From assembly GCA_013792135.1 (NCBI GenBank), contig VMSP01000080.1, forward strand, positions 1 through 56,726: DNA of 56,726 nt, in the 5' to 3' direction. Made by a program: the position numbers and the translations under genes. Below the pieces are notes generated by a model. It saw only the letters and a program-made list of their open reading frames with translations. It had not been told where the DNA came from and did not search any database. The stretch is from Desulfocapsa sp. (GTDB taxonomy: Bacteria; Desulfobacterota; Desulfobulbia; Desulfobulbales; Desulfocapsaceae). The number at the start of each line of letters is the position of its first letter. Positions within the stretch are counted from its first letter, which is position 1. Shown here piece after piece: positions 29,714-31,177 of the stretch.

Positions 29714-30544
29714 CTATTCAGCAAGCAATGAATCCAATTTTTCAGTGAGATAGCCTAGATGCTTGGCCTCCTCTTTGGCCAGAAAGTGAAATAACTCCCT
29801 GCTCTTTCCCACCTCACTTTTTCTGGCCAGACGGCTATAAAGATCCAAGGCCTGAGCCTCAAGCATAATCCCCAGTTGCAGGATATCTTCCAGGGAATCA
29901 AGTTGCGAATCAAAATGAGCCATGATCTGCCGGCGATCGAGCCCACCCTCCACGATCCCATCATCAGCACGCCCCTCATCGTCCTCAATGCCGCTAAAAT
30001 CCTCCGGGGCAAACATGGCCACCAGCATTGCCTTATGCCCCTCTTCAAAGGCGGCTAAACGCTCAAGAAACTTTTTATTTTCCTCATTGGCAACCTTATC
30101 CATAAGACCAAGGTAGAGCTGGCGCAGCCCCTCTTCCATGGCATAGGCCATGTGAAAGACATCCGGAAAATCCCGCTCCATGAAAAACTCCAAGCCCTGC
30201 AGTTCCCCACCGCTGATTTTTTCACCTTTCCAGGCGACAATCCCACCACTCATATTATAAACCTCACTGAAACCTTCGGCCAACAAAAGTTGACAGGCGG
30301 CTTTACTGCGTACCCCGGAATGACAGTACACAAGGAGAGGTTGGTCCCGGTCCAGTTCCCCTAGCCTAGTTGTCACCTCTTTCACCGGCATGAGCAGAGC
30401 ACCGGCAAGATGTCCCTGCTCATATTCCTTGGGTTGTCGCACATCAAGGATCTGATAGGTATCCCTGGGATGGACATCCATAAATTTTCTGGCCTCTTCC
30501 GGACTCATATTGGCTCCAGAGGTAAATAAACTTTTCCAGTTCAT
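29714..30544 (-). CDS. Rhodanese domain fused to a ferritin-like (rubrerythrin-type) domain
   Basis: A 276-residue soluble fusion. Residues about 14-110 are a rhodanese domain (YQILDVRQPKEYEQGHLAGA, catalytic loop LVYCHSGVRS with Cys near residue 94, then SEVYNMSGGIVAWKGE). Residues about 125-275 are a four-helix ferritin-like domain with di-iron-type E-x-x-H motifs (LAAFEEGHK and FLAKEEAKHLG). Such fusions occur in anaerobes and are suspected of sulfur transfer or peroxide/sulfide handling, without firm proof. The ATG overlaps the stop of the upstream candidate selenoprotein in an ATGA junction, so the two are probably made together. Confidence 0.88.
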   Translation of the reverse strand: MNWKSLFTSGANMSPEEARKFMDVHPRDTYQILDVRQPKEYEQGHLAGALLMPVKEVTTRLGELDRDQPLLVYCHSGVRSKAACQLLLAEGFSEVYNMSGGIVAWKGEKISGGELQGLEFFMERDFPDVFHMAYAMEEGLRQLYLGLMDKVANEENKKFLERLAAFEEGHKAMLVAMFAPEDFSGIEDDEGRADDGIVEGGLDRRQIMAHFDSQLDSLEDILQLGIMLEAQALDLYSRLARKSEVGKSRELFHFLAKEEAKHLGYLTEKLDSLLAE

Positions 30545-30873
30545 GCCATCAACTCCTCATACATTGTTTCATTATAGCCCACATAATAGCTGTTACCCAC
30601 CTGTAACGCGGGCGCCCGCAGGTTTCCGCTACGGCCAAGAACATCATGCATGAGTAGATCTTTGACTGCCGGATCAGGGACATACATCTGTACCTTTTTC
30701 CCTTTCCCGACAAAGACCTTTTCAGCTCGCCTCAATCTTTCCCAAGCTGCATCGACCTGCAATGCCTCTTTCTTCGCATCAATTTCAACTACAATCTCAA
30801 TCTGACCAAGAGCCTCCCGGGCCTTGCTGCACGATACTCATCCTTTCCGAAAATATGCCCATTCAATCTTCAT
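30541..30873 (-). CDS. Candidate selenoprotein: thioredoxin-fold protein with U-V-S-C motif (in-frame UGA at codon 12)
   Basis: Read through one TGA, this frame gives a 110-residue protein: MKIEWAYFRKG-U-VSCSKAREALG, then QIEIVVEIDAKKEALQVD and a C-terminal GRSGNLRAPALQVGNSYYVG. The N-terminal strand, a U-x-x-C pair at positions 12-15 followed by a helix, and a cis-proline-like RAPALQVG segment fit an ArsC- or glutaredoxin-like thioredoxin fold. AGGTGG precedes the ATG at 30871-30873 by about six bases. The downstream half alone would have to start with TTG at codon 38 and would lack the active site, so decoding as selenocysteine is favoured. A hairpin (30807-30826) is placed as a bacterial SECIS should be. 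The TGA stop overlaps the ATG of the rhodanese/ferritin gene. An alternative is a pseudogene with a nonsense mutation in place of Cys. Confidence 0.8.
30807..30826 (-). promoter_or_regulatory. Candidate bacterial SECIS hairpin
   Basis: On the minus strand, CAAGGCC, loop CGGGA and GGC-T-CTTG form a 7-pair stem with one bulged U. The stem begins 11 bases after the UGA (30838-30840) and the loop 18 bases after it, with G as the second loop base, which fits the general rules for bacterial SECIS elements. The bulged U is on the 3' side, unlike in E. coli fdhF. Confidence 0.6.
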
Positions 30874-31177
30874 TTGATCCACCTCATATCTAGTCGATTC
30901 AAAAATTTCAGCCCCTGATAACTACTGATTCCACCACAAGAGTAATAGCAAAACAGAAGAAATAATCAATAGCCCGGAGTAAGAAAAGAATAATCTTGCC
31001 ATGTGTCAGTTATATAAGTATAAAATATGGTAAATTTATACAGGAGATTCGTCTTATCTGACTTTGGATATTAAAGTTGTAATGGTTAACCAGACTGACC
31101 GGTTTAAATAAACCACAGACATCAATCCATTGGTTTTTATTCACCACTTTTAATACATCAAAACAAGGAGGTTTTTC
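30874..31177. other. Intergenic region between divergent genes
   Basis: These 304 AT-rich bases separate the selenoprotein operon (leftward) from the anchored protein (rightward). No gene is seen. AAGGAGG lies just before the rightward start at 31178. A string TATAAGTATAAAATATGG near 31013 could hold promoter hexamers but no clean pair was identified. Confidence 0.5.

Follow-up and report, generated by a model that had tools for sequence, protein, structure and literature searches.

The window, which is the whole 56,726-nucleotide stretch of Desulfocapsa sp. DNA analyzed here, carries on its minus strand what is, with a probability of roughly 93%, a 110-residue selenoprotein gene of the NCBIfam family NF041106, whose product has a predicted Spx/ArsC-like fold and whose UGA at codon 12 would be decoded as selenocysteine through SelB, tRNA-Sec, and a downstream hairpin. 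The locus is a new member of a selenoprotein family that has already been curated, as NF041106, and published. The features of the locus and of the gene that overlaps its end are given in Table 1.

TABLE 1 Features of the putative selenoprotein locus and its overlapping partner gene
Feature	Position in the window	Strand	Basis
Ribosome-binding-like GAGGTGG, 5' of the ATG	30879..30885	minus	Sequence
ArsC-family (NF041106) candidate selenoprotein gene, U-V-S-C active site, 110 codons	30541..30873	minus	Profile match and alignment of loci
Codon 12, in-frame TGA, probable selenocysteine	30838..30840	minus	TGA in 71/73 and TGT in 2/73 loci
Codon 15, TGC, UxxC partner Cys	30829..30831	minus	TGC/TGT in 72/73 loci
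SECIS-like hairpin (7 pairs with a bulged U; CGGGA loop)	30807..30826	minus	Folding, register comparison
Partner gene, rhodanese and ferritin-like/rubrerythrin domains, 276 amino acids	29714..30544	minus	ATGA overlap, domain search
Partner rhodanese catalytic-loop Cys74, TGT here	30323..30325	minus	Alignment of 25 loci

The frame from 30873 to 30541 is one 110-codon gene broken only by the TGA at codon 12, as the original prediction had it, and its translation reads MKIEWAYFRKG-U-VSC...EELMA-stop. The terminal stop (30543 to 30541) is the only other in-frame TGA. A sequence like the ribosome site proposed ahead of the ATG is present, and of the 14 rows closest to the window in the alignment, 11 have GAGG before the start and one of the remaining three is masked; 12 of these 14 rows, the window counted, are known to belong to the genus of the window. 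The mechanical list of open reading frames yields just the 73-amino-acid piece from 30541 to 30762, with a TTG start, and the list and the family profile together agree with the proposal that the true gene has 110 residues and that automatic calling would report the shorter piece. The same mechanical call favors a reading in which the TGA is a real stop codon or a sequencing error and only the 73-residue piece is made. That reading is very improbable, as TGA stands at the same position in 71 of 73 distinct loci, the NF041106 profile runs across it, and the codons 5' of it show a coding pattern of substitution. Over the ten codons that precede the UGA, pairwise differences between 13 of these 14 rows (L007, with a masked start, was excluded) number 34, 0, and 183 at codon positions 1, 2, and 3, and 152 synonymous differences are found against 47 nonsynonymous ones. 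The predominance of third-position differences indicates that this stretch evolves as coding sequence.

The read-through protein matches NF041106, the "ArsC family (seleno)protein" model, with 104 bits over model positions 1 to 107 of 107, the curated cutoff being 85 bits. The 73-amino-acid piece by itself scores 59.9 bits, so about 44 bits sit in the part around the TGA. In the genome-wide search the locus scored 96.2 bits. NF041106 matches occur in 96 of the 144 genomes surveyed in the class, in 94 above the cutoff, and exactly one TGA is found in 95 of the 97 matches and none in the other 2. For the alignment, 83 rows were gathered (the window, 12 relatives, and 70 further loci), and the removal of 10 duplicates left 73 distinct loci; an archaeal match of 29 residues (L014) was left out of the relatives. 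The homologs with Cys or Sec at position 12 that had been sought are abundant, with TGA in 71 loci and TGT in 2 (L017 and L034), and the codon three places downstream is TGC or TGT in 72 loci and TCG in 1. Among these rows, all picked by their match to the family profile, the start codon lies 10 to 12 codons 5' of position 12 in 70 of the 73 loci and was not found in L007 (masked), L096, and L099; the homologs thus do not all begin after the UGA. Across 18 family members, Y7, R9, position 12, S14, A18, A33, G58, and P66 are invariant, as are G80, G83, L85-R86-A87-P88, G99, and Y105.

The UxxC near the N terminus, as in NF041106, is present as U12-V-S-C15, and no essential difference from that family was seen in score, coverage, or site. 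The Pfam ArsC model gave no match to the read-through protein at E values up to 1, and the protein is filed under NF041106 and not as an arsenate reductase. A subthreshold Pfam match to Transferrin (E = 0.023) was discarded as chance. Among the organisms for which a similarly named protein has been reported is Desulfotalea psychrophila, which we take to belong to the same wider group as the organism of the window. The relevant passage of PMC1794560 gives this sulfate reducer an ArsC-like selenoprotein, which resembles the protein described here by its ArsC-like name and its selenocysteine. NF041106 itself is listed among UxxC selenoproteins as "Arsenate reductase-like protein, UxxC" in the consulted part of a 2026 review (PMC13188914). 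Excerpts of two other papers contain a COG1393 UxxC entry (PMC9312934), which is alike by name and motif only, and an entry "Arsenate reductase 2, cd03032, UxxC" (PMC2398784). The passages on the family in this literature give no tested function for the ArsC-like selenoproteins.

The selenocysteine machinery sought as a check is all present in the genome of the window. SelA (541 bits), SelB (393 bits), and SelD (377 bits, with an internal TGA) were found, together with a tRNA-Sec on contig C71 that has a UCA anticodon and, by reading of the sequence, a G73-CCA end. SelB has one match above the cutoff in this genome; a second was not found there, the other matches being lower, two of them at 134 bits. 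The comparison supports a mechanism in which SelB, the selenocysteine tRNA, and a hairpin 12 to 31 bases downstream would together decode the UGA at codon 12 as selenocysteine.

Two other decodings of the UGA were weighed against selenocysteine. In the first, a selC*-type tRNA-Cys with a UCA anticodon would read the codon as cysteine and produce a plain CxxC protein. The genome indeed holds, on contig C158, a tRNA-Sec-shaped gene with a UCA anticodon and U73-CCA (U73 by reading), it has two cysteinyl-tRNA synthetase (CysRS) matches above the cutoff, and two homologs carry Cys at position 12. Against this reading, which we regard as quite improbable, the single SelB match leaves no SelB* evident, and the TGA is kept in genomes that show just one tRNA-Sec match, at least seven of them (G133, G079, G031, G013, G096, G005, and G012), a count made with stricter filters on genomes of which some are incomplete, so that weak genes may be missed. 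Moreover, the ArsC-family gene ends in TGA in all 25 loci that carry the partner gene, which indicates that UGA is not read through generally. In the second, the UGA would be read as another amino acid, e.g., glycine, by a tRNA with a UCA anticodon encoded on contig C114, which ends in U73-CCA by reading and whose body is presumably tRNA-Gly-like. This is extremely improbable: a glycine codon does not occur at position 12 in any of the 73 loci, and a tRNA of this type was seen in 1 (L153) of 16 stretches examined, while the TGA of the family is near universal. Selenocysteine is very likely, and much the best, reading of the UGA at codon 12.

The unusual tRNA genes were also compared with published ones. 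According to the sections consulted of PMC7609411, selC* tRNA-Cys has a tRNA-Sec-like body with U73, a GCA or UCA anticodon, and an 8/4 arm with a bulged A51a, and selB* lies downstream in some groups. The C158 gene shares the tRNA-Sec-like body, the UCA anticodon, and U73 (by reading); the gene downstream of it is mvhD-like and not selB, and its 8/4 arm was not settled by the RNAfold drawing. The C158 copy (L058:1501-1599) and an imperfect copy on C62 (L059:1501-1599) are both in the genome of the window, and further tRNA-Sec-shaped UCA/U73-CCA genes occur in L139 to L143 of the same genus, giving seven copies in six genomes. By reading, tRNA genes of the C158 type sit between hdrA-like and mvhD/frhD-like genes; the copy on C62 and that of L143 have imperfect acceptor stems. 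Elsewhere in the family, other genera have related genes shaped like tRNA-Sec (L144, L145, L146, and L149) with GCA (Cys) anticodons by reading, and in L147 a UCA tRNA with U73 lies directly upstream of a SelB-like frame (by reading), like the selC*-selB* layout. The UCA-anticodon tRNA on C114 (L060:1501-1592), also seen in L153, has a long variable arm, scores better with the general tRNA model (60.3 bits) than with tRNA-Sec (47.5 bits), and has HU-like and conjugation-like ORFs nearby (by reading). The better of the two CysRS matches is on C67 (554 bits), and the second (C78:20578-21963, L156; 379 bits) lies within a 782-residue open frame. Further literature bearing on these tRNA leads, likewise consulted in excerpt, is found in PMC5330540, PMC5424206, and PMC8124441.

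The 7-pair hairpin of the original prediction, its loop 18 bases away from the UGA, was borne out by folding. Bases 12 to 18 after the UGA pair with bases 24 to 31, the U at base 27 is bulged, and the loop CGGGA begins 18 bases after the UGA. For the family, 30-base windows were folded against synonymous shuffles at the 71 TGA loci. The mean z score was -1.31 at codons 4 to 13 after the UGA, the other 20 windows ranging from -0.41 to +0.44. In a set of 53 loci thinned to below 80% identity, the same codons gave a mean z of -1.32 (standard error, 0.11), with the other ten windows between -0.44 and +0.44. This excess of hairpins at the SECIS position fits SelB and argues against decoding by a selC* tRNA-Cys. 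It is visible only across the family: from the sequence of this locus alone, the hairpin energy is not distinguishable from that of synonymous shuffles, with a z of -0.93 at codons 4 to 11 (19% of 2,000 shuffles as low) and of -0.38 at codons 4 to 13 (34% of 2,000 as low). The suggestion of a SECIS element after the UGA is thus upheld at the level of the family, but the hairpin of the window is no stronger than shuffles. The two Cys (TGT) rows retain hairpins as well (z, -0.49 and -1.15), which makes them an imperfect control. Of the 71 loci, 26 pair best in register B, 20 in C, 17 in A, and 8 in A with a bulge; in the window, A with a bulge (-8.1 kcal/mol) is better than B (-4.8 kcal/mol). 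A single consensus structure, and hence a covariance model, was dropped because three registers and the bulged form are best in different rows, and an Rfam scan of the locus returned one match, below the gathering score and chance-like; SECIS elements of bacteria are short. Thus, a hairpin is retained at the right place, and its exact pairs are not.

The read-through protein is predicted to have an Spx/ArsC-like fold. A structure model built from 13 sequences (the window and 12 relatives), with C substituted for U, has a mean pLDDT of 85, two of the five models reaching just 41 to 43. The best Foldseek matches are Spx chains (E values of 3e-3 to 7e-3, probability 1.00, TM score about 0.5), with no match at an E value of 0.001 or less. 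VIA-align, whose Z scores below 8 are middling by the tool's own note, placed the ArsC-related 3gkx first (Z, 7.9; rmsd, 2.8; 87 residues aligned), followed by Spx chains (Z, 7.0 to 7.7; rmsd, 2.9 to 3.1; 85 to 88 aligned), with glutaredoxins scoring 6.3 or less. When a profile built on 18 members of the family was searched against the PDB, it also matched Spx (E = 1.4e-4). The protein therefore shares a predicted fold and a profile match with Spx and YffB/ArsC (3gfk, 6ghb, 1rw1, and 3gkx), and its site aligns with the CxxC-type site near the N terminus of Spx, with selenocysteine probably in place of the first Cys; it differs from Spx/ArsC proteins in having no Pfam ArsC match. Of the proposed thioredoxin-fold C-x-x-C site, the redox U-x-x-C part stands, whereas VIA-align and the profile point to an Spx/ArsC-like fold and not to a plain thioredoxin. 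The site and the fold suggest that Sec12 would attack and Cys15 resolve, and that Arg86 of the conserved L-R-A-P motif may lie near the active site, as in Spx/ArsC proteins.

The partner gene starts within the stop of the ArsC-family gene (ATGA), and Pfam assigns two domains to its product, rhodanese at 73.4 bits and rubrerythrin/ferritin-like at 42.5 bits. With at least 1,282 bases inspected downstream of each locus, the partner was found in 25 of the 73 loci, always with the ATGA overlap, and was not found adjoining the other 48 within these stretches. L103 has a weaker ferritin-like match without the rhodanese part. The overlap may couple the translation of the two genes. The partner alignment (A3) excludes L008, with a longer frame, and L012, in which no partner was found, and the structure model of the partner has a moderate mean pLDDT of 70. 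Over the 25 loci, the codon for the catalytic Cys74 is TGA in 7, TGC in 9, and TGT in 9, and the seven TGA-bearing partners (L015, L016, L025, L026, L039, L040, and L043), each directly after the ArsC-like gene, have a rhodanese loop that reads U-H-S-G or U-R-S-G. The letters CGC AGC AAG GCT GCT GC that follow the TGA are identical in all seven, while the same codons vary in the 18 Cys copies, which suggests a second SECIS element. The seven relatives thus seem to have a tandem pair of selenoproteins. Rhodanese selenoproteins of the UxxG form (PF00581) are reported in PMC13188914, and the partner shares the U-x-S-G loop with them in the seven relatives; it differs in its fusion to a ferritin-like domain and, in the window, in having Cys. 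The words "ferritin" and "rubrerythrin" do not occur in the text of that paper, and a literature search on a rhodanese-rubrerythrin/ferritin fusion or selenoprotein returned nothing related, judged by titles and the opening of abstracts; the fusion may nonetheless have been described.

Other neighbors of the ArsC-family gene vary among the relatives. A ferritin gene lies upstream in five other relatives, and unrelated neighbors, BioF-like and ComM-like, are found in other clades (all named by reading). An FAD protein gene is upstream in 11 relatives. It was dropped as a part of the module because the one copy scanned, that of L025, scored 259 bits against TIGR03169, below the cutoff of 310, and the best match in the genome of the window lies elsewhere (C70, 266 bits).

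The recognition of this gene would mend a likely annotation slip, the 73-residue fragment from a TTG, and add a well-supported selenoprotein. Judging by the rhodanese and ferritin-like neighbors, the protein may act on persulfide, selenium, or peroxide, and it could, as a tentative possibility, be the reductase of the partner or its sulfur or selenium acceptor in persulfide or peroxide handling. More doubtful still is that the two genes form an undescribed two-protein module, in which a selenocysteine-containing Spx/ArsC-like reductase would be translationally coupled to the rhodanese-ferritin-like protein, the catalytic residue of the latter alternating between Cys and Sec in close relatives and each gene having a separate SECIS element. 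Such a module would move sulfur, selenium, or electrons between persulfide and di-iron sites. The conserved overlap and the Cys/Sec switch of the partner give the family a concrete partner, and this is the part worth following.
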